A stretch of DNA of 64,000 nt from Pirellulales bacterium (GTDB lineage Bacteria > Planctomycetota > Planctomycetia > Pirellulales > JACPPG01): contig DASZWQ010000050.1 of the NCBI GenBank assembly GCA_035546535.1, positions 1-64,000 on the forward strand. Reading direction: 5' to 3'. The position numbers and the translations under genes were made by a program. The notes under the pieces are model-generated. The model saw only the letters and a list, made by a program, of their open reading frames with translations. It was not told where the DNA came from and did not search any database. Shown here piece after piece: positions 13,535 through 59,477 of this stretch. Position 1 is the first letter of the stretch; the number at the start of each line of letters is the position of its first letter.

Positions 13535-14467
13535 ATGCCGGCACGCCCGTTGAGCAAGATCAGTCCTGACTGGTGGGACTATACGACGCTCGATCGCGAG
13601 ATCCTGGATGACGCCGCGCGCCTCACACCCGAAGACATGCTGGCGCTCGCGCGGCCCGGCTTTGACGTGCGCTTTTATGACACGCTGGAAGATTTTTACC
13701 TGGCCGAGGCGCTGGAATACATCACCAGTTGGCGGGCGGCCACGCCGGAATCGCCGGCGGGCATTTGCGGACCGATCGGTCCCACGGAGCAGTTGCCGCT
13801 GGTCGCCCGGCTGGTGAACGAGCTCGAGCTGAACTTGCGCCACGCCCATTTCTGGGGCATGGACGAATGGGTCGTCGACGGCCGCGCGGCGTCGCTCGAA
13901 TTTCCGCTCTCGTTCGCCCGGGCTGATCTCGAGTTGTGCTTCAATCGCATTCGGCCTGACTTGCGGATGCCGTCGGCCAATATTCATTTTCCCAACGAGA
14001 ACCTGGCGGCCTACGTGGCCAGTTATTCGCAAGCGCGCTGCCTGGTGATGCAGGGAGGGCAGGGGGAAGTCAAGCATTGGGCGTTCAATGACCCGCCGCG
14101 CCGCGTGGCTCCCTATCACGATCAGCCCCCCGCGCCCGAAGAATACCGACGCCTTTCGACGCGCGTGGTCGAACTGCATCCGATGACGATTATTCAAAAC
14201 GCCCGCACCTCGGGCGGCGGTGTGGTAACCAACGTGCCGACGCACGCGATCACGGTCGGTCCGGCCGAGACGTGGCGTGCCGAAAAGGTTTCGATCTGGC
14301 ACGCCGGCTGCCATGACAATCCGTTCGGACAGCGGCTGACGACCTTGATGATTTCGAAGCGATTGCCCGACGCCGCGGTGCCCATGTCGCTGTTGGCCGA
14401 CCATCCGCAGGTGCAGTTCAATTTCTACCGCCCTGGCATCGGCACCTGCGATGCCGAAATGCATTGA
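13535..14467 (+). CDS. NagB-like sugar-phosphate isomerase/deaminase family protein
   Basis: A 310-residue cytoplasmic protein with features of the glucosamine-6-phosphate deaminase/6-phosphogluconolactonase superfamily. The family-type HFWGMDEW and RIRPD segments occur around residues 108-150, and the C-terminal part contains [19 protein letters not shown]. It is longer than E. coli NagB (266) and several active-site words differ, so the exact reaction is unclear. The ATG at 13535 has GGAAGG just upstream. It heads a co-directional cassette with an SDR oxidoreductase (25 bp apart) and a PIG-L deacetylase, suggesting amino-sugar catabolism or modification. Confidence 0.72.
14051..14066 (+). 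repeat. GGGNAGGG polar motif cluster L1
   Basis: GGGCAGGG at 14057-14064, inside the NagB-like gene where it encodes QGGQGE. Confidence 0.8.
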
Positions 14468-42563: not shown

Positions 42564-42672
42564 CCGATTCACCGATTCGGTGTAATGTACGGTGCGTTCG
42601 GCCCTTGCGGGATTGGCCGGCCGGTGGGTCTTTGGCAGGCCTAAGGCAACGGCTTGTCGTCGCGACGCGTGT

Positions 42673-42689
42673 CAGGGCAGGGGAGGGGG
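42673..42689 (+). repeat. GGGNAGGG polar motif cluster L12
   Basis: Overlapping matches 42675-42682 and 42680-42687 in the accA leader. Confidence 0.85.
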
Positions 42690-42735
42690 CGCGCGTCAGC
42701 AGCAGGCGAGCAAACAAACGCTTCGAGTTTTCATC

Positions 42736-43740
42736 ATGGCAATACCACTGCAGCAGTTGGCCTTCGAGCAGCCGATCTACGATCTCGAAGCCCGGCTGGC
42801 CAAGCTGGAAAGCACGGCCGACGACAGCCTGGCCACGCGCGACGAAATTCGTCGGCTGCGGCGCGAGCGCACCGACCTGATGAAAAAGATCTACAGCCAG
42901 CTCGAGCCCTGGCAGATCGTGCAAGTGGCGCGGCATCCGCAGCGGCCGATGACGACCGATTACATCGAGCTGGTGTTCGACGATTTCGTCGAGCTGCACG
43001 GCGATCGCTCGTTCGGCGACGACCGGGCCATTCGCACCGGCATGGCCAAGCTCGACGAATACAAGGTCATGGTGATCGGCCACCAAAAAGGCAAAGACCT
43101 GAAGGAACGGATCGCCTGCAATTACGGCTGCGCCCATCCCGAGGGCTATCGCAAAGCCATCGCAAAGATGAAATTCGCCGCCAAGTTCGGGCTGCCGATC
43201 ATCACGCTGATCGACACGCCGGGGGCTTATCCTGGCATCGGCGCCGAGGAGCGCGGCCAGGCCCAGGTGATCGCTGATGCGATTTTCGAAATGTCGCGTC
43301 TGTCGTGCCCCGTGATCTCGGTCGTCATTGGCGAAGGCGGGTCCGGCGGCGCGATCGGCATCGGGGTCGGCGACAAGATCGCGATCCTCGAGTTTGCCTA
43401 CTACTCGGTGATCAGCCCCGAAGGATGCGCCGGCATCCTCTGGAAGGACGCCGCTTACTCCAAACAAGCAGCCCAGGCCCTGCGGCTGACGTCGAAAGAC
43501 CTGCTCCGCTTGGGCGCCGTCGACGACGTGATCGAAGAACCGATCGGCGGCGCCCACCGGGACCACCACCAGATCGCCGGCCGGCTGAAACTGTACCTGG
43601 TGAAGGCCCTGCGCGAGCTGATCCAAAAATCCCCCGAGCAGATCATCGAAGGCCGGTATGAGAAATACCGGCGGATGGGGATGTATCTCGAGCACCGCGG
43701 GGATCCGGCCCCTGCCGGAATCTTTCATCAACCGGCCTGA
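42736..43740 (+). CDS. accA: Acetyl-CoA carboxylase carboxyltransferase subunit alpha
   Basis: A 334-residue subunit of the carboxyltransferase that moves CO2 from biotin to acetyl-CoA, the first step of fatty-acid synthesis. The N-terminal coiled coil (FEQPIYDLEARLAKLE) and HGDRSFGDDRAI are characteristic. The oxyanion segments around IDTPGAYPG and GEGGSGGAIGIGVGDKI are intact. Length matches E. coli AccA (319) with a short C-terminal extension. accD is not adjacent. The leader contains a G-rich polar motif at 42675-42687. Confidence 0.97.
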   Translation: MAIPLQQLAFEQPIYDLEARLAKLESTADDSLATRDEIRRLRRERTDLMKKIYSQLEPWQIVQVARHPQRPMTTDYIELVFDDFVELHGDRSFGDDRAIRTGMAKLDEYKVMVIGHQKGKDLKERIACNYGCAHPEGYRKAIAKMKFAAKFGLPIITLIDTPGAYPGIGAEERGQAQVIADAIFEMSRLSCPVISVVIGEGGSGGAIGIGVGDKIAILEFAYYSVISPEGCAGILWKDAAYSKQAAQALRLTSKDLLRLGAVDDVIEEPIGGAHRDHHQIAGRLKLYLVKALRELIQKSPEQIIEGRYEKYRRMGMYLEHRGDPAPAGIFHQPA

Positions 43741-43774
43741 CCGCCCTGCCGATGGGCGGCGAAAATCCCTTTTG
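43741..43774 (+). terminator. Putative terminator of accA
   Basis: Starting at the base after the stop codon, CCGCCC-tgccgat-GGGCGG forms a 6-bp stem, followed by GCGAAAATCCCTTTT. The modest T-run makes this a weak intrinsic terminator. Confidence 0.45.
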
Positions 43775-44616
43775 CCCGGCGGCGCCGAAATTCAGATTTT
43801 TTCGCTCACGGAATTCCGCTGCCGGGTTTTAGCGCAGCGCGATCGGATTATTTTTGGCGGGCGATTTTTTCGCGCCTCGCCACCGCCTCGTTAGACACGC
43901 GCCGAGGTCGATCCATGAGTCCGAACTCATTCCCAGGTGCCCAAAGTGGTCAGCGATGATTTCTCGATTTCTGACCCGCCGAGGGCGGCAGGAGCCCCAG
44001 TTTCGGCCGATAGCCCAACGTCCGATAATGTTTCTTATGTTCGGTTGTTGATGCTGGATTTCCCGGGAAATCGTGGGTTCTGCGCTTCGCCGCCCCTTCC
44101 ACGCGCCCTTCGATTTGGACGTCGGATGCCCAGGCTCGGTGGCTTGTCAGCAAATCCATGAGATCGATTTTGGACTATGAAAAAAACCGCCACCGGCCCC
44201 CTGCCGCGGCACCGGTAACTGGTCAGAAATTGACGGTCGAAATTCATCGCGGCGATGAACGCGAGAGCACGGCGCGAGCAGGGTTGATCCGTCGTCTGCC
44301 AACGATCTGCGCACCCAAAAAAGCGGCGCCGCGGCAGGGGGCTGACTCGCTCGATGAAGCCACGTGCGACTCAAAACGCCAACAAGGCCACGGGGTGCGT
44401 GCCCGTCACAATCGCGCCAACCCCACCTCGAGAGGAATCGCCGCGTGCTGGGCCAGCTTCGTGATGCCGCTACCGGACAAACGGGCGCTTCCGTCACGAC
44501 GCTAGCAGGTCGACACGGAAAGTCGCCCTTTGCGCGGCTTCGCTTCTTCGCTAGAGTTCCGCCTCGCTTGGCCCAAACTCCGCGCGGCCGTGACGCTCCA
44601 AGGAGGGATGCAGGAC
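43775..44616. other. Long intergenic region with no recognised gene
   Basis: About 840 bp have no frame with family resemblance or convincing coding pattern on either strand. Local T-rich runs (about 43798-43870) contrast with the GC-rich flank, and the second half is more even. No tRNA-like T-loop, long hairpin or repeat copy was recognised. The last 30 bp hold the AGGAGGG ribosome-binding site of the next gene. A small RNA or decayed gene is possible. Confidence 0.4.
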
Positions 44617-45318
44617 ATGCCCGGCTTCAAGATTCATATCTCGGCGAGCACGACCCTCGGTATTGCCTACGGCGGCACCGCCTTCGCCGTGTATCACCAG
44701 CCGCTGGAAACCAGCGTCCTGGCGGCAGGGCTGTGCGCGGTTTCCGGCATGTTTCCCGATTTCGATAGCGGACCAGGCCGCCCGCTACGCGAGAGCGTGA
44801 CCTTTGGCGCCGCGGTCGTGCCGATGCTGTTGATCGACCGCTTCAAGCACATGGGCATGTCGAACGACGCCATGGTGCTCACCGGCGGATTGATCTACTT
44901 GGCGATCCGCTTTGGCGTGGCTTGGATATTGCGCCATTACAGCGTGCATCGCGGCATGTTCCACAGCTTGCCCACGGCCCTCATATTCAGCGAGCTGGCA
45001 TTCCTGCTTTGTTCCTCGGGCGGGCTACCGGTGCGTTTCTTCGAAGCCGGCGCCGTGATGTTGGGTTTCCTCTCGCACCTGATCCTCGACGAGATATGGA
45101 GTATCGAGTGGAAAGGATTGCGCCCGCATCTTAAGTACACGTTCGGCACGGCGTTCAAGTTCTGGGGACCGTGCATGTGGTCCAACGCCCTGACGTACGT
45201 GCTGATGCTGGCCACGACCGTCGTGGTGTTCAACGACCCGATCTGGTCGAACGAGTCTGCCGCCGCGCAAGAAGCGCACGAGATCGCGTCCTCCTTGATG
45301 CAGCATCTCAATCGCTAG
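44617..45318 (+). CDS. Membrane-bound metal-dependent hydrolase (YdjM/DUF457-like)
   Basis: A 233-residue inner-membrane protein with several helices. It shows the putative metal-site pattern of the LexA-binding/YdjM-like hydrolase family: HISASTTLG at the N-terminus, FPDFDSGPGRP near residue 50, HRGMFHSLP near 108 and a final LSHLILDEIW. The reaction is unknown. AGGAGGG lies 9 nt before the ATG at 44617; an in-frame ATG at 44608 is too close to that site. It converges on dtd across the candidate terminus region. Confidence 0.82.
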   Translation: MPGFKIHISASTTLGIAYGGTAFAVYHQPLETSVLAAGLCAVSGMFPDFDSGPGRPLRESVTFGAAVVPMLLIDRFKHMGMSNDAMVLTGGLIYLAIRFGVAWILRHYSVHRGMFHSLPTALIFSELAFLLCSSGGLPVRFFEAGAVMLGFLSHLILDEIWSIEWKGLRPHLKYTFGTAFKFWGPCMWSNALTYVLMLATTVVVFNDPIWSNESAAAQEAHEIASSLMQHLNR

Positions 45319-45327
45319 CGACAACAG

Positions 45328-45337
45328 AGGGGCAGGG
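45328..45337 (+). repeat. GGGNAGGG polar motif cluster L13 (last rightward copy)
   Basis: GGGCAGGG at 45330-45337, 12 bp past the hydrolase stop codon; immediately left of the inversion point. Confidence 0.85.
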
Positions 45338-45364
45338 TGCGCGTCCCTTGGCACATAGCCCATG

Positions 45365-45386
45365 CTCCCCTGCCCTCCCCTACCCT
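45365..45386 (-). repeat. GGGNAGGG polar motif cluster R1 (first leftward copy)
   Basis: Three overlapping reverse-strand matches (45368-45375, 45373-45380, 45378-45385); immediately right of the inversion point. Confidence 0.85.
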
Positions 45387-45389
45387 CTT

Positions 45390-45435
45390 GGCATCGTCGC
45401 CGTCTTGTTTCGACGCGTGCTGGCACGACGATGCC
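45390..45435. terminator. Inverted repeat between convergent genes
   Basis: GGCATCGTCG (45390-45399) and CGACGATGCC (45426-45435) are perfectly complementary across a 26-nt spacer that itself contains CGTC/GACG. It could terminate transcription of the convergent hydrolase and dtd genes. No T-run follows in either direction. Confidence 0.45.
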
Positions 45436-45446
45436 GCTCCGCGTAA

Positions 45447-45887
45447 TCACCGGCTCTCAACAAGCAGCGTCACCGGACCGTCGTTCGTCAGGGTCACGTC
45501 CATGTGCTGGCGGAACTTTCCGGTCGCCACCGTAATGCCCTGCTCGCGCACGCGCGCGACGAAGGCTTCGTACAAGCGTTCGGCGACCTCCGGCGGCGCA
45601 GCGCCCGTGAAGCTGGGCCGGCGACCGTGACTGCAATCGCCCAAGAGCGTGAATTGGCTGACGACGAGCATCGCGCCGCCGACGTCGGCCAGCGCCAGGT
45701 TCATCTTTCCCGCCGTGTCGTTGAACACCCGCAGCCCGACAATCTTGTCGGCCAGCGCGCGTACGTCACTCTGGTCATCGCCGGCGGCCACTCCTAAGAG
45801 CACCAGCAGGCCGGCAGAAATCTGGCCCACGACCTCTCCGGCCACGACGACCTCGGCGGACGAAACTCGTTGCACACAGGCACGCAT
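45447..45887 (-). CDS. dtd: D-aminoacyl-tRNA deacylase
   Basis: A 146-residue cytoplasmic enzyme that removes D-amino acids (and glycine mischarged on tRNA-Ala) from tRNA. The family blocks are intact: [31 protein letters not shown] (active-site Thr/Gln region) and NDGPVTLL carrying the cross-subunit Gly-Pro. Length equals the family norm. The frame is open upstream to 46094, but the conserved N-terminus fixes the ATG at 45887. Confidence 0.95.
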
Positions 45888-48714: not shown

Positions 48715-49413
48715 TCAGGCTTCTTCTTCCAGCATGCGGATTTCGCCGTCAAAGCCACGAGCGATCATCGCGGCGTGGACGCGCTCGGCGCGGTCGCTGG
48801 CGCGTACGAGCAACATTCCCACCGCCCGCGAGCCGTTGCGAACCGTCACGGGCGACAGCCGTCGTGGACAATTGAATGTGCGTGCGTACTGCGCGCGGCG
48901 CATACGTTCCAACTCGTGCGACAAGACGAAGACGAAGCGATGCATCGAGGCGAGCACGGCGACCATCAGCTTCGGCGCGCCGCACTGCCGCATGGCCTGC
49001 AACAGCCGCTCGAAAGAAGTCGTGTAAGCCAGACACAGAATCACCGTGAACGACAGCAATCCTTTGGTAAGAACGCCCGCCATGACCGGCCCCCCTGCCC
49101 TGCCCTGTGCCAGCGGGATCGACAGCGCGACTAGTGTCAGCGGCACGGCAAAGACGAGCAGCCGCGCGAGCAGGTAGCGTGCCGGGATACGCGCGAGTAA
49201 CACCAGGCAAACAACGACGACGACGGCCGCGGCATGAATTGCGCTCAGCGGAACCCCCGGCGCGACCGACCACATCCACGGTTGCGCCACGCTGATCACG
49301 ATCAAGAGCGCCATGGCGCCCAGCAACTTCGCGCGCGCCGAAACACGATGCAGCGGGCTCTGCGCGCCGCCCCCTTGATCCAGAGTGTCGTGTTCGATGC
49401 GATCGGGCAACAT
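48715..49413 (-). CDS. cbiQ: Energy-coupling factor transmembrane protein CbiQ
   Basis: A 232-residue polytopic T component that couples the CbiO ATPase to a substrate-binding S unit. Membrane segments are followed by the coupling helices: FERLLQAMRQCGAPKLM and SHELERMRRAQYART, with the Ala-Arg type motif of the family, then VRASDRAERVHAAMIARGF. Together with the His-rich CbiO and the neighbouring ZIP gene, it points to cobalt or nickel uptake. The loop LAQGRAGGPV carries two copies of the polar motif on the opposite strand (49093-49105). Confidence 0.9.
   Translation of the reverse strand: MLPDRIEHDTLDQGGGAQSPLHRVSARAKLLGAMALLIVISVAQPWMWSVAPGVPLSAIHAAAVVVVVCLVLLARIPARYLLARLLVFAVPLTLVALSIPLAQGRAGGPVMAGVLTKGLLSFTVILCLAYTTSFERLLQAMRQCGAPKLMVAVLASMHRFVFVLSHELERMRRAQYARTFNCPRRLSPVTVRNGSRAVGMLLVRASDRAERVHAAMIARGFDGEIRMLEEEA
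49090..49107 (-). repeat. GGGNAGGG polar motif cluster R2
   Basis: Matches 49093-49100 and 49098-49105 inside cbiQ, in the coding sense of that reverse-strand gene. Confidence 0.8.
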
Positions 49414-49567
49414 GGCGATTCGGGAGCGTGCGGGAGGGGCGCTCGTGAAGCAACGAAAGCTGCGGCCTCCACTTGTCCCGCTTATCGTACCACGCCAAGC
49501 TGCCTTTCGCGCGAGCGGAAGGGCGAACGCGTACCTTCTTGCCCTGGCCCGGGCCGAGTAGAATCGC

Positions 49568-50620
49568 ATGATGCGCGCGAGCAAGCCACTTGTTGCACTG
49601 ACCATGGGCGATCCGGCCGGCATCGGGCCGGAGGTGATTGCCGGCATCTGGTCAGTCCCCCAAATCCACGAATGGTGCCAACCGGTGGTCGTGGGCAGTC
49701 CGGCGGTGCTGGAACGCGCCTGCAAGCTCGTGGCCCGCAATGTCAAAGTGGTCGAGGTTCGCGCGCCCGACGAGGTCGCTGCCACGCCGGCCCTGGCGCC
49801 CTGCCTGGCGGCGTGCGCTACTGACGCCGCGAGCGTGCCGGCCGGCAAGGTCGACGCGCGCGGCGGCCAGGCAGCTTACGACGCTCTGATCGCCGCAGCG
49901 AAGATGGCACTCGCGGGCGAGATCGACGCGATCGTCACCGCTCCTTTGAGCAAGGCCGCGCTGTGGCAGGCCGGGCATCATTATCCGGGCCACACCGAAT
50001 TGCTGGCCGAACTGTGCGGCGTCAACGATTTCGCGATGATGCTCTACTTGGGTCCCGACGAGCAGGTGCGCGGCCCGCACGGCTTGGGAGTGATCCATGT
50101 GACGTTGCACACGGCGCTACGCGATGCGATCGCGGCGCTCGACGAAGAGGCGATCCTCGCCAAGATCGAGCTGGCGCACGCTTCGATGCGCCCGCTGACC
50201 GGCGGCCCGCCGCGATTGGGTGTCTGCGCCTTGAACCCCCACGCGGGCGAAGAAGGATTGTTCGGCGATGAAGAGACACGGCTGATTGCACCGGCGGTCG
50301 CGCGAGCGCGCGGTCTCGGCATCGACGCGGCGGGCCCCTACCCTGCCGATACGCTCATGGCTCGCGCGCGCGATGGAGAGTTCGACGCCGTCGTCGCCAT
50401 GTACCACGACCAGGGGCACATTGCGTTGAAGCTGTTGGGGATGCACCGGGCGGTAAACGTCACGCTGGGACTCCCCATCGTGCGCACGAGTGTCGCGCAC
50501 GGCACGGCTTTCGACATCGCCTGGCAAGGCCGGGCGCGCACCAGCAGCATGACCGAGGCCGTACGCGTCGCCTGCCAGTTGGCGCGCTATCGATCGATAC
50601 AAGCTTCGCCACTCAAGTAA
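49568..50620 (+). CDS. pdxA: 4-hydroxythreonine-4-phosphate dehydrogenase
   Basis: A 350-residue NAD-dependent enzyme of the DXP-dependent pyridoxal 5'-phosphate route, oxidising 4-phosphohydroxy-L-threonine before condensation by PdxJ. Signatures: MGDPAGIGPEV, TAPLSKAAL, the zinc-ligand HYPGHTE region and YHDQGHIALK. Length is as in the family. Paralogues used in terephthalate or 4-hydroxythreonine catabolism exist (PdxA2), but no catabolic neighbours are seen. Divergent from cbiQ with a 154-bp gap. Confidence 0.93.
   Translation: MMRASKPLVALTMGDPAGIGPEVIAGIWSVPQIHEWCQPVVVGSPAVLERACKLVARNVKVVEVRAPDEVAATPALAPCLAACATDAASVPAGKVDARGGQAAYDALIAAAKMALAGEIDAIVTAPLSKAALWQAGHHYPGHTELLAELCGVNDFAMMLYLGPDEQVRGPHGLGVIHVTLHTALRDAIAALDEEAILAKIELAHASMRPLTGGPPRLGVCALNPHAGEEGLFGDEETRLIAPAVARARGLGIDAAGPYPADTLMARARDGEFDAVVAMYHDQGHIALKLLGMHRAVNVTLGLPIVRTSVAHGTAFDIAWQGRARTSSMTEAVRVACQLARYRSIQASPLK
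50336..50343 (-). repeat. GGGNAGGG polar motif R3
   Basis: Single match with N=T (GGGTAGGG on the reverse strand) inside pdxA. Confidence 0.6.
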
Positions 50621-50687
50621 CACCAACCTACGCGCTACGCTTCGCCGCAATGACGGATTTCCTTTCCCATCGGACACCGAAAACCTG

Positions 50688-51356
50688 ATGACAACGCCTG
50701 CCGCGGAATCGCGCCCCCCCTCCCCTGCCCCGGACTCTTGCTACGCCTACTTAATCCGTCATGGGGCGACGGCAGCCAGCGCCGCGCATCCGGTGATCAT
50801 GCAAGGGCGGACGATGGACTCGCCTTTGTCGGAAATTGGCCACCGGCAGGCCGCGGATGTCGGTCGTTTCCTGGCGGATCGGCGCGTCGACGCCGTTTAC
50901 GCGAGCCCCATGGTTCGTGCGCAGCAGACGGCTGCCGCCGCCGGCAAAGCCCACGGCCTCAGCCCTGTCGCGGTCGAGTCTCTGATCGAAGCGGACCTGG
51001 GCCGCTGGGAAGGTTTGAGCTGGGACGAAATCAAACAGCGCGAGCCCGAAGAGTACGAGCGGTTCGTTTCGCGTCCTGACGTACACGGGTATGGTGGCGG
51101 GGAAAGCATCGCCGACGTTCGCCAGCGCGCGCTACCGGCGCTGGAGCAGGTAATGCAGCAGCACCTGGGCGGGATCGTGGCGATCGTCACGCACCGCATC
51201 GTGATCCGGGCTTGCGTCGCTTATTTGATCGGCATGCCATTGGCCGAAGCGCGACGGCTATCCCCCTCGACGTGCGGAATATCGCTGTTGCGCTATCGGC
51301 GTGGCGAGATTGAAGTGACGACCTTCAATGCGCTGTTCCACTTGAGCACGTGGTAG
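50688..51356 (+). CDS. Histidine phosphatase (phosphoglycerate-mutase-like)
   Basis: A 222-residue cytoplasmic phosphatase. The catalytic RHG motif is in YLIRHGATAAS (about residue 25), a second-Arg region is DAVYASPMVRAQQTA, the proton donor Glu is in EADLGRWEG, and the second His lies in AIVTHRIVIRA. Substrate unknown; relatives act on alpha-ribazole phosphate, phosphoglycerate or sugar phosphates. The N-terminal SRPPSPAPDS is encoded across a polar motif cluster. It follows pdxA by 67 bp on the same strand. Confidence 0.92.
   Translation: MTTPAAESRPPSPAPDSCYAYLIRHGATAASAAHPVIMQGRTMDSPLSEIGHRQAADVGRFLADRRVDAVYASPMVRAQQTAAAAGKAHGLSPVAVESLIEADLGRWEGLSWDEIKQREPEEYERFVSRPDVHGYGGGESIADVRQRALPALEQVMQQHLGGIVAIVTHRIVIRACVAYLIGMPLAEARRLSPSTCGISLLRYRRGEIEVTTFNALFHLSTW
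50714..50731 (-). repeat. GGGNAGGG polar motif cluster R4
   Basis: Matches 50718-50725 and 50723-50730, coding for the Pro-rich N-terminus of the histidine phosphatase. Confidence 0.85.
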
Positions 51357-51380
51357 CGCGCAAACTCGCGCGGTGGGTGC

Positions 51381-51409
51381 CATGCTTTTCGCCGCAGGCG
51401 ATAAGCATG
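51381..51409 (+). terminator. Hairpin after the histidine phosphatase gene
   Basis: CATGCTTTTCGCC and GGCGATAAGCATG pair at 12 of 13 positions around a GCA loop, 24 nt after the stop codon. There is no T-run. The GCATGC...GGCGATAAGCATGC pattern resembles a dispersed planctomycete intergenic hairpin. Confidence 0.55.
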
Positions 51410-51514
51410 CCTTCCGTAAGCGGCTATCGGGAACGGTGCCGCAAAACCCTCGCTGGCGCTTCGGGCTAAAATCGCGCTCGCCGTATTCGACGCCTTTGGC
51501 GTCTTTGGCGAACG

Positions 51515-52477
51515 CTAGCGCTTGATGACGCGCCGCAAGTAGGCCTCGGTATCGTCGATCGGAATCGTGTTGCCGCCGGGATTCGTGAACTGGCCCGCGT
51601 CGATCGGCGCGTTGAAGTGTACGTCGACCAGTTTCATCCGCGCAAGCAATCGATCGCTGTCGCGGCGTTTCCCTGGGGCCGCCGCGCGCAGATAGTCGAC
51701 CTGGTAGGGAAACAGGTCATCGCGACCGATGTAGATCTCGATCTGGTTCGGCAAATACACAGGTAGGGCGGCAGGCTCAGGGGGCGTGGCCGCCTCGCCG
51801 GCAGACTCTTCGCCCGCCATCAGCCGCGCGAGCGCCTCTGGCTTCCACACGCCCAGCACGACATAGGTCGGGGTCACCCCTAGTTTTTCGCTGCGCATCG
51901 ATTGAAACTCGAACGACCGATTCAAACTGTCGAGCAGTACCGACAAGCCACCGAGGGCCAGGACGTCGATCCCGGCGCGAAACCCCGATTGCTGCATCGC
52001 CGCCAACGCCCGCGGCAAGTCGACCCGACCCAGGCGCGACTGCTTGATCGTGGTCTGCAGGGTCCAAACGCCCGCGCCGTCGCTCACCTGCTGCAAGCTG
52101 CACACCTTTTCGCCCAGCTTGAGCTTCAGTTCCAAGCGCATCTTCCGTGTGTCGGCGGGCCCTTGCAGGTATTGGCCGAGCGCCGTGAGCGACTCGCCAA
52201 ACAGTTCGGAGTGCAAGTTGATCTTGGCCGAGACCGAGTCGTGGCTGGCCAACTGGCGGGCCGCCTGTCCGATGATCTCGTCAGCGCGCGGAGCAGGAAC
52301 CAGATTCTCACGGTGCGAGGGGGGAAGCGCGGCGCCGGTCGCAGCCGGAGCATCACCACGGGCGGCAGCATTGCCAGCAGCATCACCGTGGCGATGCCGG
52401 GCCAGAAAAACCCCGGCGGCGACTGCGCCCACAATGCCCAATACGATCGCCGGCAGAATGGGCAATCTGTGCTTCAT
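51515..52477 (-). CDS. LolA-like exported protein
   Basis: A 320-residue protein with an N-terminal signal anchor (LPILPAIVLGIVGAVAAGVF), an Ala/Pro-rich linker to about residue 60, then a LolA/LolB-like beta domain. That domain is recognisable from DSVSAKINLHSELFG, VCSLQQVSDGAGVWTLQT and YQVDYLRAA. Planctomycetes have several such lipid-binding-like proteins of uncertain partner. It may carry lipids or lipoproteins in the periplasm. A short GACGCC-TTT-GGCGTC hairpin lies at 51489-51503, downstream of its stop. Confidence 0.68.
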   Translation of the reverse strand: MKHRLPILPAIVLGIVGAVAAGVFLARHRHGDAAGNAAARGDAPAATGAALPPSHRENLVPAPRADEIIGQAARQLASHDSVSAKINLHSELFGESLTALGQYLQGPADTRKMRLELKLKLGEKVCSLQQVSDGAGVWTLQTTIKQSRLGRVDLPRALAAMQQSGFRAGIDVLALGGLSVLLDSLNRSFEFQSMRSEKLGVTPTYVVLGVWKPEALARLMAGEESAGEAATPPEPAALPVYLPNQIEIYIGRDDLFPYQVDYLRAAAPGKRRDSDRLLARMKLVDVHFNAPIDAGQFTNPGGNTIPIDDTEAYLRRVIKR

Positions 52478-52759
52478 TGTGGGGTTTTAACGGATTTGCC
52501 AAAGAAACCGGTTATGCAAGGCCGACCATATCACTCAGAGGTGCGTTGCGCAAGCGGTGTAGCCGTCGCGGCAGAGTCCGTCGGCGATTCTTTCGCCGGC
52601 GCCGGATCTGCCTGGCGCTGTTACCCGCGAGGCGACGCATTGTAAGCGGGGCCGCTGCGCGCGGTCCACGTCAAAACCGTCGAACAACGGGCTGCCGCGC
52701 CGGCCGAGAATGCCGCGTGCGCGCCGCTCGCGTCGCTGAGTTTTCCAAGGGGGGAAACG

Positions 52760-53887
52760 ATGAAGTATCAAATGGTAGTTTTTGGCTTGATTCTGGCGGC
52801 CGGCGGTTGCGCCGTACCGCTGGGTCATAACTTGCCGCCGGCCGAGCAGATCATGCATCCCGGCCCCGGCGTCGATGGCCCTGGGCCAGGCGTGATGATT
52901 CCCGGCGGCGGAGCCGTGATGCCGTTCCCTGGTGCGACTTCGCAGATCGCATTCATCGGGCCCGACGGCATGCAAGTGACTTGGGACATTAGCGGCCCCG
53001 GCGCCTTCGATGCCGAACCGCTGGTCGTGCCCGGCCGCTACAACTTCCCCCAAGGCGCGATCTTTCGGCTGAAGCTGACGTCGATCCCCGGTCGCCCGGG
53101 CGTCGAGTTGTATCCGACCTTGGAAGTGGCTCCGACCTTGCCGCGTACCGACGCGTACCTCGCGCACAACGCGATTCCGTTCCAGTTGACGGATGAGGAC
53201 TTCGACCAGGTGCTCAGCGGCAACTTCGTCACCAAGGTGATCTATCTGCCGGATGCCGAGTTCCAGGAACTGGCGCTGGCTGGTGTAGAAACCCTGGTCA
53301 GCACGCGACTCGATCCGGGCGTCGACCCGATCGTCGAAGCGGATCGCCGCGGCTCGATCCTGTCGATCATCCGCATCGGTAACAAGGACCTGCAAATCGC
53401 CGGCGGAGGAGACGCCTACGCCGCGGGCGGCGGAATACCCTTCGGTGTCGGTCCTGACGGTGCACCTTGCGGCATGTGCGGCCCGGGTGGCATGGGTGCC
53501 GGACCGGGAAGCCAGAATCCGCCTGAGCTGGTTTCGGGCATGACGGCGCCGCAATACGGCTTGCCGTACTCGGGCACTCCGATCGGTTTGCCGGGCCCGC
53601 CGCACATTCCGTTCGGCGTGCCGGCCGGCTTGCAGAAGCACGTGATGAAGAACCACACGTTCATGGATATTCCGGGTCCGGTCGCGAAGATGAAGATCGA
53701 CGTGAAGCAGAAGCCGGGCCTCACGTATCCGAAACCTGTCAGCCACGTCCATATCACCGAAGAGGTGAAACCCGGACCGGCTCTGTATAGCCATCCGCTG
53801 TCGACGAAGATGCAGCTGATCGGCTCGGGCCCGATTCCTCCGCCGCCGGCCCCCGTGGCATGCGACGCGGAATGTGCCAGCCCGTGA
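52760..53887 (+). CDS. Putative lipoprotein of a tandem paralogous family
   Basis: A 375-residue exported protein. The signal peptide ends at a lipobox-like AAGGC (Cys17). A Pro/Gly-rich segment, a beta domain at about residues 55-190 and a C-terminal Pro/Gly-rich tail follow. The segment GVELYPTLEV, then the ITE/LTDEDFDQVLSGNFVTKVIYL block and the ADRRGSILSIIRIG strand all have counterparts in the next gene, showing duplication. No family name recognised. AGGGGGGAAACG precedes the ATG. It begins a three-gene exported cluster. Confidence 0.75.
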   Translation: MKYQMVVFGLILAAGGCAVPLGHNLPPAEQIMHPGPGVDGPGPGVMIPGGGAVMPFPGATSQIAFIGPDGMQVTWDISGPGAFDAEPLVVPGRYNFPQGAIFRLKLTSIPGRPGVELYPTLEVAPTLPRTDAYLAHNAIPFQLTDEDFDQVLSGNFVTKVIYLPDAEFQELALAGVETLVSTRLDPGVDPIVEADRRGSILSIIRIGNKDLQIAGGGDAYAAGGGIPFGVGPDGAPCGMCGPGGMGAGPGSQNPPELVSGMTAPQYGLPYSGTPIGLPGPPHIPFGVPAGLQKHVMKNHTFMDIPGPVAKMKIDVKQKPGLTYPKPVSHVHITEEVKPGPALYSHPLSTKMQLIGSGPIPPPPAPVACDAECASP

Positions 53888-53910
53888 CGTGAATGAGTGA
53901 AGTCGAAAGC

Positions 53911-53942
53911 CGCTTCCTCTCCCCGCGCGGGGAGAGGAAGCG
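53911..53942. repeat. Perfect 32-bp palindrome (16+16)
   Basis: CGCTTCCTCTCCCCGC is followed directly by its exact reverse complement. It lies 24 bp after the first paralogue's stop codon. It could be a terminator stem without a T-run or a dispersed intergenic palindrome of the CTCTCCCCGCGCGGGGAGAG kind. Confidence 0.75.
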
Positions 53943-53967
53943 ACAAAGGAAAGAAGTCGTTTGTTCG

Positions 53968-54879
53968 ATGTCATCCACGAGATCCACGGCTATGGTCAAT
54001 CAACTCCGCAGCTCGGACGTTCCGCACAGATCGGGCCGAGAGAGGGTTGCTTGCATGGCAGCGATGAGTGTCGTTCTGAGTCTGGTCGCAAGTACGCAAC
54101 TCGCCGCGCAGAATCAGAACGTGCACTATCGCTACCAAGGCAACGAGCCTCCGGGAGCGATTGGCAGTTGGCAACTCCTGCGGGGAGGACCATTGCCTGG
54201 ATATTTCCAGCCGGTTGAGATCAAGGCTCCCCAGGGGGCCTTGATCTCGCTGGCCGTGGACGGAAGCTTCTTACCCTCGGTTCCCACGCCGGTTCGCGTC
54301 GGCATGCTGATCGCGCCGGTCTATCGCTTGCGGGTCACGCGGATTCCGCAGCACGAAGGGCAGGAAATCTATCCGACGATCGAGGTCATCGATCGGCTGT
54401 ATCCACCGGTGGGTCAAGTGATGCGGTTTGCCGTGCCGATCGAGATCACGCAAGAGGACCTCGAATTGGCGCTAGAAGGCAACTACGTGACGCGGGTGAT
54501 CTATCTCGAAGACCCCGAGCACGTGCTACCGGCTTGTCCCGGCGGCTGTTGCAAGGAACAAGCCTGGTTCGACGCCGGACCAGGATCGAACCCCGTGGAA
54601 ATGGCCGACCGCCTGGGGCGCCCGATGGCGATTCTGCGCTTGGGCGGACGCGTGCCGGATAGCCGCACGGGGCCCGATTCGCAGTTCCTGGGACATTGTC
54701 CTCCGTTTATTCCGCTGCCCGGTTGCCTGCCGCTTTTGAAGCCGATGGGCGAACCGGTGCCGGCCTCTCCGCCCGCGGGCGCCGAGAAGACGGAAGCTCT
54801 GCCGCGCACGGCATCAAGCAAAACAAGCAAGAACTCGCAGATCCGTTTCGCCGCGGCGAACCAAGAACCACAGAAATGA
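53968..54879 (+). CDS. Exported protein paralogous to the preceding gene
   Basis: About 303 residues. It shares with the upstream gene the order GQEIYPTIEV, then PIEITQEDLELALEGNYVTR, VIYL and the VEMADRLGRPMAILRLG strand. The N-terminus has a hydrophobic stretch, MSVVLSLVASTQLAAQ, preceded by Arg-rich residues. The true start is uncertain: ATG 53968, 53992 or 54055, the last having AGAGAGGG 8 nt upstream. A longer frame from 53893 would read through the 32-bp palindrome and is unlikely. A Cys-rich ACPGGCCKE appears in the middle. It overlaps the next gene by ATGA. Confidence 0.75.
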   Translation: MSSTRSTAMVNQLRSSDVPHRSGRERVACMAAMSVVLSLVASTQLAAQNQNVHYRYQGNEPPGAIGSWQLLRGGPLPGYFQPVEIKAPQGALISLAVDGSFLPSVPTPVRVGMLIAPVYRLRVTRIPQHEGQEIYPTIEVIDRLYPPVGQVMRFAVPIEITQEDLELALEGNYVTRVIYLEDPEHVLPACPGGCCKEQAWFDAGPGSNPVEMADRLGRPMAILRLGGRVPDSRTGPDSQFLGHCPPFIPLPGCLPLLKPMGEPVPASPPAGAEKTEALPRTASSKTSKNSQIRFAAANQEPQK

Positions 54880-56069
54880 CGAGCGGCAACCGGCAATTCG
54901 TTGGCGGCGCAAGTGCGGCGCGCGTTCGCATGGCGAGCGTGGCCATGCTGTCGCTGGCCCTCTGTTCGTGCCGGGCGCCCTTGCATCCGTCGGGCCTGGC
55001 GCCGGCGGCGGCGACGCCCCCCTGCCCTGCCGGCGAAGAATGCATGCCGGCGGTGGCCCAAGTCGCTCCGGTCATGGCGCCGATGATGCCGGGATTCGCC
55101 CCGACTCCCCTCCCCTACGAAGTACAGGGTTCGTGGGCTCCGCCCGGGATCGCGCTTCCGTGGCCCGAGGATGAGTATGTCCGCGACGGCGGTGACGACG
55201 GGCCGCCGGTGCTCGTGTCGCCTGATTGGCAGGTCTACAACCTGGAGATGGAAGACACCGTCGCGCATTACGACACGGAGGACGGCCGGACGCTGGTCGA
55301 ACCCTCGAACAAGGTCAACGTTTACGCGCCGTGCTTCGGCGCCGTGCGTACCGTGACGCGCCTGGCGGGCAACGAACAAACCCAGCCACCGCTGGGCGTC
55401 GACACCCCGATACGCATCGCGCGGAACGACGAAACCCTAATTCCTGCCTCGAGCTTGCAACGTGTGCAGGCCGAGCGGCAGGCAGGCATGCGCGTGCCGA
55501 GCCTGGCGCGCACCTATCAGGGCGAAGGCGTATTGGGCCAGGCCCAGATCATCACCGCCTTCCAGGACGCGTTCCTGCCGTACGAAAACTTCACCGTCTT
55601 GCGGACGGGCGAGTTCGCCAACAACGAGAAGGCGCGGCTGGCGACGGCCGCGCAGGCGGCGATCACCTGGACTGCCGATCAAGGCGCGCAGGTCGTAATC
55701 GACAACCGCGCGGCACAGGTGGTCGAAGGCGATCGTCGGGCCCAGGCCACGTACATGGTCGAAGACTTCAAGAAGCCGAAGTTGCGCGTGATCAAGGTGG
55801 CTTCGACCCAAACCGCTTGCTGCGGCGAGCCGGTCGACTTCACGGTACGCTTCGACAATGTCGGCACCCAAGTGCTGGGCAACGTCGTGATCCTCGACAA
55901 TCTCTCGCCGCGGCTGGAATACGTGCCCGACAGTGCCCAATCGAGCCTGGAAGCGGCCTTCAGCGTCGAGCCGAACTCGGGCAATTCCCTGGTGCTGCGT
56001 TGGGAAATCGACAAGCCGATCCAACCCGGCGACGGCGGCGTGGTGCGTTTCCGCTGCGTGGTGCGGTAG
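54876..56069 (+). CDS. Exported protein with C-terminal DUF11-type domain
   Basis: A 397-residue exported protein. A signal sequence ends near SLALCSCRAP, and a lipid anchor is possible. The Pro-rich N-terminus contains PCPAGEECMP. A central region (about 120-290) has no clear family. The C-terminal about 100 residues match the DUF11/conserved-repeat beta sandwich: CCGEPVDFTVRFDNVGTQVL, then NVVILDNLSPRLEYVPDSA. Such domains occur in cell-surface proteins. The ATG at 54876 overlaps the previous stop, so the three exported genes form one transcription unit. Confidence 0.8.
   Translation: MTSGNRQFVGGASAARVRMASVAMLSLALCSCRAPLHPSGLAPAAATPPCPAGEECMPAVAQVAPVMAPMMPGFAPTPLPYEVQGSWAPPGIALPWPEDEYVRDGGDDGPPVLVSPDWQVYNLEMEDTVAHYDTEDGRTLVEPSNKVNVYAPCFGAVRTVTRLAGNEQTQPPLGVDTPIRIARNDETLIPASSLQRVQAERQAGMRVPSLARTYQGEGVLGQAQIITAFQDAFLPYENFTVLRTGEFANNEKARLATAAQAAITWTADQGAQVVIDNRAAQVVEGDRRAQATYMVEDFKKPKLRVIKVASTQTACCGEPVDFTVRFDNVGTQVLGNVVILDNLSPRLEYVPDSAQSSLEAAFSVEPNSGNSLVLRWEIDKPIQPGDGGVVRFRCVVR
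55018..55032 (-). repeat. GGGNAGGG polar motif cluster R5
   Basis: Match 55021-55028 in the N-terminal PPCPAG of the DUF11-type gene. Confidence 0.8.
55105..55118 (-). repeat. GGGNAGGG polar motif cluster R6
   Basis: Match 55108-55115, coding for TPLPY in the same gene as R5. Confidence 0.75.
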
Positions 56070-56126
56070 CGGGACGCAGTCAACGCGACGTCTCCTCGGA
56101 TTGCTCTAATCGCACGGCATCCATGA

Positions 56127-56254
56127 TTTGTGGTGCAGGCGTCTCACCTGCCTCCTCCACGCTCCGCTTATCAAAGCAGTCGGATATGGCCGGATTCTGA
56201 ACGCTCGCCTGGTCCAGGCGAGCAGGAGTGCAGCCGAGACGGCCGCACCACAAA
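56127..56254. repeat. Imperfect inverted repeat of about 25-bp arms with internal palindrome
   Basis: Left arm 56127-56151 starts TTTGTGGTGCAGGCGTCTC. The right arm (56230-56254), reverse-complemented, starts TTTGTGGTGCGGCCGTCTC. The arms agree at about 20 of 25 positions. Between them lies CTCGCCTGG-T-CCAGGCGAG. It resembles the GCAGGCGAGACGCCTGCACTACAAA intergenic repeats of environmental planctomycetes. The rest of the gap 56070-56377 holds a polar motif cluster at 56340-56357. Confidence 0.6.
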
Positions 56255-56337
56255 AGAGCCTGGTTGCATGGCCCGGCGATCCTCGCCCCCTGCGGACCTG
56301 ATGCCCTCGCTGCGTTATGATGTCGAGGTCGTTCGGT

Positions 56338-56358
56338 CCCCCTCCCCTGCCCTGCCCC
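56338..56358 (-). repeat. GGGNAGGG polar motif cluster R7
   Basis: Three overlapping matches (56340-56347, 56345-56352, 56350-56357) in the leader of the aminotransferase gene. Confidence 0.85.
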
Positions 56359-56377
56359 GCGAGCTTGATGGCCACCC

Positions 56378-57481
56378 ATGCACGGATCGTGGATTGCGCA
56401 GCGTATGCGAGCGCTCGATAGCTCGGGTATACGCAAGATATTCGACCTGGCTGCGCAGATGAAAAGCCCGGTCAACCTGTCGATCGGCCAGCCCGATTTC
56501 GACGTGCCCGAGCCGATTCGCCAGGCCGCCGTCGAAGCCATCGGCTCGCGCAAGAATGGCTATTCACCGACGCAAGGCATCGGCGCGCTCGTCGAGAAGC
56601 TGCAAGCTCGCGTTAGCGCTCAATACGGCCATGCCGATCGCAAGACTTTGGTGACCAGCGGCACCAGCGGCGGGCTGGTGCTGGCTCTGCAAGTGCTCGT
56701 GAATCCCGGCGACGAAGTGATCGTTTTCGATCCCTACTTCGTCAGCTATCCGGCGCTTGTGGAACTTGCCGGCGGGCGCCCCGTGCTGGTCGATACTTAC
56801 CCGACGTTCCGCATCGATTTCGACAAGTTGCGGGCGGCGATCACACCGCGGACGAAGGCCATTATTTTCGCCAGCCCGGCCAACCCCACGGGCGTCACGG
56901 CCACCGAAGCCGACGTGCGCGCACTCGCCGCGCTGGCGGCCGAGCGCGATATCGCGCTGATCAGCGACGAAATCTACGAGCGGTTCTGCTACGACGCGCC
57001 GTTCGTTTCGCCGGCGCGCTACAACGATCGCACGATCGTCGTCGACGGGTTCAGCAAGACCTACGCCATGACCGGCTGGCGGCTGGGCTTTGCGCATGGG
57101 CCGGCCGAGATCATTCAAGAGATGGGCAAACTGCAGCAATACACGTTCGTGTGCGCGCCGCAGCCGGTGCAATGGGCCGGCATCGCGGCCCTGGACGTCG
57201 ACATGACGCCGCACATCGCCGACTATCGCCGCAAGCGCGACCGGCTCGTGGCCGGCTTGGCGGGCAAGTACGAAGTCGTGACTCCCGGCGGCGCCTTCTA
57301 CGCCTTCCCGCGCGTGCCGCAAGGCACGGCGAGCGACTTCGTCGAACGAGCCATCGCCCGCGAGCTATTGATCATCCCGGGTAAGATTTTCAGCCGGGCC
57401 GATACTCATTTCCGCATCTCTTACGCGGCCAGCAACGAGACGATCGACCGCGGCGTGGAGATTCTTCGATCGATAGCGTGA
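56378..57481 (+). CDS. Pyridoxal-phosphate-dependent class I/II aminotransferase
   Basis: A 367-residue fold-type I aminotransferase. The N-terminal INLSIGQPDFDVPE-like stretch (VNLSIGQPDFDVPE), the YSPTQG cap, ASPANPTGV, SDEIYERFCYD and the PLP-Lys in DGFSKTYAMTGWRLGF are all present, as is the FRISYAAS C-terminal Arg. It falls in the aspartate/aromatic/MalY-like group, but the amino donor cannot be told. It is slightly shorter than AspC. A single gene facing the clpX terminator. Confidence 0.93.
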   Translation: MHGSWIAQRMRALDSSGIRKIFDLAAQMKSPVNLSIGQPDFDVPEPIRQAAVEAIGSRKNGYSPTQGIGALVEKLQARVSAQYGHADRKTLVTSGTSGGLVLALQVLVNPGDEVIVFDPYFVSYPALVELAGGRPVLVDTYPTFRIDFDKLRAAITPRTKAIIFASPANPTGVTATEADVRALAALAAERDIALISDEIYERFCYDAPFVSPARYNDRTIVVDGFSKTYAMTGWRLGFAHGPAEIIQEMGKLQQYTFVCAPQPVQWAGIAALDVDMTPHIADYRRKRDRLVAGLAGKYEVVTPGGAFYAFPRVPQGTASDFVERAIARELLIIPGKIFSRADTHFRISYAASNETIDRGVEILRSIA

Positions 57482-57509
57482 AGAGTACGCCATTGCATGC
57501 ACGCGAGTG

Positions 57510-57554
57510 AAAAAAAACGAGCCCGGTGACGGCCGTAGCCAGCACACCGGGCTC
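57510..57554 (-). terminator. Intrinsic terminator of clpX
   Basis: The 10-bp perfect stem GAGCCCGGTG/CACCGGGCTC (57519-57528 and 57545-57554), read on the reverse strand, is followed by a run of eight T (57510-57517). It lies about 60 bp past the clpX stop codon. Confidence 0.88.
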
Positions 57555-57613
57555 GTGAAATAGCGCGATTGACTTAACCCCCACGGCCAGCAAGCTGGGA
57601 GTGGGCTTGAACG

Positions 57614-58903
<1,290 letters not shown>

Positions 58904-59166
58904 ACCAACTCCTTTTCGAATCAGACTTCGCGGTGGCGCGTCGTGGATACCGCGAAGAATGAAGGGACTCCAGTTGTCGCTCGAGAGGCTTGGCCTGACC
59001 GTCCTAGTCTGGGAATTGCGTCGAGCCGCATTTGCTTACGAGATCACGTGGTCGCGTGTTCAGCCAACCTGCCCTCTCCGATCCTGGCAGATTGTCTCAC
59101 AAGAGTGGTGCTATCGGCAAAGAGATTACCGGCGGTCGATTTCGTTACAATCTAGCGCCAGCGGCC

Positions 59167-59430
59167 TTAACCCTCTTTGCCGCTATCCTTTAACTCGTCT
59201 TGCAGACGGGCTGACAGCGTTGCTTTTATTGTTCGGTATTCGACGTCCGTTAGCTCACCCTGGCTGTGCAATTCTCGGAAATTCGTGAGCATCTCGTTGG
59301 TGGTCATGCCGTCTTCGCGGAAGCTGCTTTTCACTCTGCCAACGACGTAAATTCCGATGGACGCCAGAATGGCGACTGCGGCAACTCCCAGGGTCACCTG
59401 CGCCGTCGGCGATCGCAGAAAATCCCACAT
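59167..59430 (-). CDS. Small membrane protein with SHOCT-like C-terminus
   Basis: An 87-residue protein. One N-terminal membrane helix (AQVTLGVAAVAILASIGIYVVG) is followed by a linker and a C-terminal helical segment, NEMLTNFRELHSQGELTDVE plus YRTIKATLSARL. This has the LxxLxxLhxxGxIT-xE-Y pattern of SHOCT (short C-terminal oligomerisation) domains. Probably an inner-membrane oligomerising protein of unknown role. It is a single gene upstream of clpX. Confidence 0.72.
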   Translation of the reverse strand: MWDFLRSPTAQVTLGVAAVAILASIGIYVVGRVKSSFREDGMTTNEMLTNFRELHSQGELTDVEYRTIKATLSARLQDELKDSGKEG

Positions 59431-59462
59431 AGATTAGCGTCACGGGCGTACGAAGGATGCGT

Positions 59463-59477
59463 GCCCCGCCCTCCCCT
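59463..59477 (-). repeat. GGGNAGGG polar motif R8
   Basis: Match 59469-59476 upstream of the SHOCT-like gene. Confidence 0.7.

Follow-up and report, generated by a model that had tools for sequence, protein, structure and literature searches.

In E. coli, KOPS orient the loading of FtsK, which then moves to dif where its gamma domain activates XerD (PMC5357621, PMC2680272). A polarity switch of the octamer GGGNAGGG at dif has been used as a hallmark on large replicons (PMC13342612), in a paper that leaves the Planctomycetes unmentioned, while Kono et al. (2011), the only dif survey across several phyla found in the open-access literature, predicted dif in 16 phyla with none in the Planctomycetes, for which 0/1 genome gave a site (PMC3025954). 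Planctomycetes are described as being without FtsZ and many members divide by budding (PMC5147048).

We analysed a stretch of 64,000 nucleotides (here, referred to as the window) on a 212,941 bp contig of a Pirellulales bacterium. The window is, with high confidence, the terminus junction of the chromosome, in which KOPS on both sides would orient FtsK to a dif site at 44018-44045 for dimer resolution by XerC and XerD. The system is of a known kind; in the open-access literature, no description of dif or KOPS in this phylum was found, including after Kono et al. (2011). The sites reported here belong to the same class as those predicted by Kono et al. (2011) and fill the Planctomycetes gap, and the KOPS hallmark is the same as that used for large replicons. 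Features shared with the E. coli XerCD-dif/FtsK-KOPS system are a single-copy 28 bp site of 11-6-11 layout with an ATAA...TTATGT core, the octamer GGGNAGGG aimed at dif from both sides, and genes for XerC, XerD and the FtsK gamma domain. In contrast to E. coli, the outer arm bases of the site differ (ACGTCCG / CGGT), FtsZ was not found above cut-off, and the octamer density near dif is approximately 1 per 3 kb, against a published E. coli value of approximately 1 per 12 kb (PMC3140498). The features of the window are as follows:

14057-42687, plus strand: left-arm KOPS, all plus, at 14057, 14527, 26905, 27155, 27160, 27165, 29378, 29383, 30332, 31909, 37995, 38126, 39377, 39382, 39964, 42675 and 42680
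42592-43740, plus strand: accA, acetyl-CoA carboxylase carboxyltransferase alpha (Pfam PF03255, E 6e-137), left neighbour of dif
42675-42687, plus strand: final KOPS pair of the left arm ahead of dif, GGGCAGGG at 42675 and GGGGAGGG at 42680
44018-44045, plus strand: dif, ACGTCCGATAATGTTTCTTATGTTCGGT, with XerC arm 44018-44028, central hexamer 44029-44034 and XerD arm 44035-44045
44530-45318, plus strand: ydjM-like membrane protein gene (Pfam PF04307), which in the order normally follows dif on the right
45329-45376, no strand: hairpin that the facing motifs can form between the convergent genes; it has no T run and may be a two-way terminator
45330-45337, plus strand: stray GGGCAGGG, pointing away from dif from 1.3 kb beyond it, the wrong side for its direction; no copy in the congener G003
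45368-45385, minus strand: first right-arm KOPS, an overlapping triple GGGCAGGG/GGGGAGGG/GGGTAGGG (also listed as overlapping CCCTGCCC, CCCTCCCC and CCCTACCC); a triple lies in the same gap of G003
45447-45887, minus strand: dtd, D-aminoacyl-tRNA deacylase (Pfam PF02580, NCBIfam TIGR00256), start picked from the domain limits, ORF open to 46094
49093-59476, minus strand: further right-arm KOPS, all minus, at 49093, 49098, 50336, 50718, 50723, 55020, 55108, 56340, 56345, 56350 and 59469

The initial annotation had described motifs facing each other in a 128 bp gap between two convergent genes. Its motif coordinates were all confirmed, as was the gap (45319-45446), which separates the ydjM-like gene from dtd. 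The facing motifs are copies of GGGNAGGG, which is the KOPS consensus of E. coli, and most octamers in the window take the form GGGCAGGG or GGGGAGGG. There are 33 of them in the window against a mean of 7.8 expected under a first-order Markov model (maximum 15 in 100 runs), and their convergence is real, with 18 plus and 0 minus copies to the left of 45350 and 1 plus and 14 minus copies to the right. Among 7,553 7-mers, GGGCAGG had the top convergence score at the break (5.19), while the best 7-mer outside the GGGCAGGG/GGGGAGGG family scored approximately 3.3. On the remainder of the contig the right-side octamers continue mostly on the minus strand; across the genome, the density of GGGCAGGG is roughly one sixth of that in the window, with mixed orientation on the contigs listed. 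The spacing of 30 bp between the converging arms was noted from correct coordinates, but it depends on the one plus copy at 45330. The polarity switch common to relatives is a wider interval (42687-45368) with dif inside, bounded by the last left octamer at 42680 and the first right-arm element, the triple at 45368.

Since converging copies are mutual reverse complements, the facing motifs can fold as a hairpin, and the motifs at 45330 and 45368 could instead be a two-way transcription terminator for the ydjM-like gene and dtd. We consider this explanation unlikely, though it deserves some weight: folding of 45322-45392 gave a stem of -26.7 kcal/mol within the convergent gap, and a terminator role would be compatible with a KOPS role of the triple, but the stem is without a T run, its plus arm is missing in G003, and KOPS orientation accounts for the triple unaided. 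A second strong hairpin (GGCATCGTCG...CGACGATGCC, 45389-45437), also without a T run, lies beside the KOPS triple in the same gap.

The reading of the motifs as KOPS was also set against the view that strand composition or gene direction produces their polarity as a by-product, unrelated to FtsK. G-rich KOPS-like words can in general track leading-strand skew, but the window shows flat GC skew, near zero on both sides, and the left motifs lie within genes of both strands as well as between genes, so that gene direction offers no explanation of the polarity. Furthermore, in nine genomes from six families the polarity changes at the conserved site, with 232/268 clusters of GGGNAGGG pointing at dif (60 kb on each side where the sequence extends; sign test 1.5e-36, uncorrected for relatedness), which makes a by-product very improbable. 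Taken per genome, the flip was below 1e-4 in seven, moderate in G016 (0.003) and weak in G106 (0.036; 25/38 clusters). The octamers of G003 run as 27 rightward copies followed by 13 leftward with zero exceptions, and the switch in G001 is nearly as clean. When 8-mers were ranked by convergence summed over the nine genomes with no motif assumed, GGGCAGGG came top and GGGCAGGG and GGCAGGGG were the most convergent. The octamer is over-represented in the window and directed at dif in the nine genomes, as KOPS should be. In the complete genome G078, the sampled skew shift lies approximately 0.7-1.4 Mb from dif, under sparse sampling and weak skew. This counts against the terminus reading, as do the flat skew of the window, the weak flip in G106 with the moderate one in G016, and the partial retention of KOPS-contacting residues in FtsK; dif can, however, lie apart from the skew shift (PMC3025954, PMC13342612).

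The dif site ACGTCCGATAATGTTTCTTATGTTCGGT sits between accA and the ydjM-like gene. It was found as a short noncoding block upstream of the latter, perfectly conserved in a comparison with four congeneric genomes that have the same ydjM-like gene, while the surrounding noncoding DNA is not conserved in these congeners. The block has two 11 bp arms and a 6 bp centre, with arm matches of 5 + 8 of 22 to E. coli dif and 8 + 7 to that of B. subtilis, and in the window it is the joint best match to the B. subtilis site and the joint third best to that of E. coli. With up to 3 mismatches, one match was present in the source genome, a draft assembly. A possible second site at C90:2096 (2 mismatches in the 17 bp core) disappeared when the full 28-mer was searched.

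At the same threshold of 3 mismatches, the 28-mer was present in 246/297 genomes of the order, almost always as a single copy, whereas the reversed 28-mer pattern had no matches in these 297 genomes. The records carrying the site bear names such as Pirellulales, Pirellulaceae, Pirellula, Rhodopirellula and similar. A looser dif pattern was found in 378/398 genomes of the class and in 333 of the 340 good ones. When loci were collected by protein rather than by site, AACGTCCGATAAT and TTATGT were nearly invariant and the flanks variable. In genera of family f16 where the 28-mer was not matched, the variant ACGTCCGATAATGCCTCTTATGTTGTAT or a form near to it takes its place, and lies upstream of the ydjM-like gene in 10/12 genomes checked; this variant (L232-L241) has the same XerC arm with the outer XerD arm changed, and could help account for the earlier failure of dif searches if those genera are near Rhodopirellula. 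Several genomes of family f21 have many matches to the looser pattern, with 16 in G328. Because most of the class keeps the 28 bp site, it can serve to find the terminus in draft genomes.

The ydjM-like gene lies 1-2 kb downstream of the site in 22 of the 33 loci with room for it; in G008 the two are on different contigs. The habitual position of the site, upstream of the gene and in the same orientation, would suit an element that is not dif but an operator or promoter for the ydjM-like gene. Such a role appears highly improbable, as the distance from the element to the start codon is 485 bp here, more than 1 kb elsewhere and 19 kb in G016, and the site is kept in G021, G029, G034 and G054, where no ydjM-like match was found; an operator would also leave the KOPS flip and the match to Xer arms unexplained. 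The initial annotation was right in kind in expecting a chromosome-dimer-resolution site nearby, dif lying 1.3 kb to the left of the facing motifs, but its own candidate for dif, the 28-mer 45336-45363, can be given practically no credence: it shares its GGTGCGC start with E. coli dif and sits precisely between the two facing motifs, yet it agrees with E. coli dif at only 8 + 4 of 22 arm positions (12/22; rank 95 of 127,946 window 28-mers), the same gap in relatives holds nothing resembling it, and a far better, conserved site, a clear dif of the kind that the annotation had said would refute its candidate, stands 1.3 kb away at 44018-44045.

The dif site at 44018-44045 is accompanied in the genome by its cognate recombinases. 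XerC scored 345.5 bits against TIGR02224 (cut-off 335.15) and XerD 331.5 bits against TIGR02225 (cut-off 329.6), both being NCBIfam equivalogs. The FtsK gamma domain (PF09397, 90.2 bits) is of the KOPS-binding kind, with its best PDB matches in 2ve8 and 2ve9 and its closest solved relatives in the FtsK gamma of P. aeruginosa and E. coli. With respect to three residues named as KOPS-contacting in E. coli FtsK, the aligned domain keeps R1300 and has E1303 replaced by D and E1306 by A (numbering counted by hand). The presence of XerC, XerD and FtsK gamma is as much established as the site, its conservation, its single copy and the polarity flip, while loading, translocation, activation and recombination are inferred from E. 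coli. By analogy, copies of GGGNAGGG on both sides would load the FtsK translocase and orient it toward 44018-44045, where XerC would bind ACGTCCGATAA and XerD would bind TTATGTTCGGT. On a chromosome dimer, FtsK arriving at dif would activate XerD through its gamma domain, and a crossover at dif would resolve the dimer ahead of daughter cell separation.

A search for FtsZ gave no match above cut-off in 20 genomes including the source genome, with 13/14 control genomes positive. Given the strong polar KOPS and the FtsK gamma domain, this part of the system seems to be independent of an FtsZ ring. The conserved dif makes tagging or deletion feasible in cultivable species, and the coupling of chromosome resolution to division in a budding bacterium without FtsZ becomes directly testable.

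A different arrangement of dif was observed in family f23, which is probably Gemmataceae. Two dif sites lie head to head in 18/20 loci (L284-L301; e.g. G512:C1:8738683 and 8738754), XerC arms inward and XerD arms outward, mostly 47-49 bp apart, and with the looser pattern most f23 genomes show one plus and one minus match. In every pair at least 2 of the 6 central positions differ, while the arms differ at 0-6 of 22. The polarity of GGGNAGGG flips at the pair in all three genomes tested, although GGGCAGGG did not emerge when k-mers were ranked de novo in three f23 genomes. A third dif-like site stands approximately 4 kb from the inverted pair in L293, L294 and L295 (G308, G324 and G345) and at G453:C3:360376.

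An inverted dif pair with differing centres looks new. Its architecture is directly visible, and its functional reading is offered as a hypothesis. FtsK acts on the XerD side of dif, and the outward XerD arms of the pair would present this side to FtsK from either direction, while the unlike centres would stop the paired sites from recombining with each other. It may tentatively be proposed, with a little less than even confidence, that the Planctomycetia keep the whole FtsK-KOPS-XerCD-dif machinery though FtsZ is gone, so that another scaffold must place FtsK at the bud neck, and that in f23 dif has been doubled head to head with incompatible centres and XerD arms outward, such that FtsK from either side would meet an XerD arm first.

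RHS-core cassettes (DGHGSTRVLTD...RYYDPATGRF) whose C-terminal ends vary were also seen to carry extra dif-like 28-mers, antisense and at the 5' end, at loci L255-L281 (G265, 28 copies), L258 (G235), L068/L080/L115 (MAG JAITIZ01), L124 and L131. Most of these copies have approximately 50 bp of flank in common and a stop codon immediately ahead of the site, and this suggests that RHS tips are moved or exchanged by XerCD at the dif-like site. In L258 and L274, the RHS frame reads through the site.
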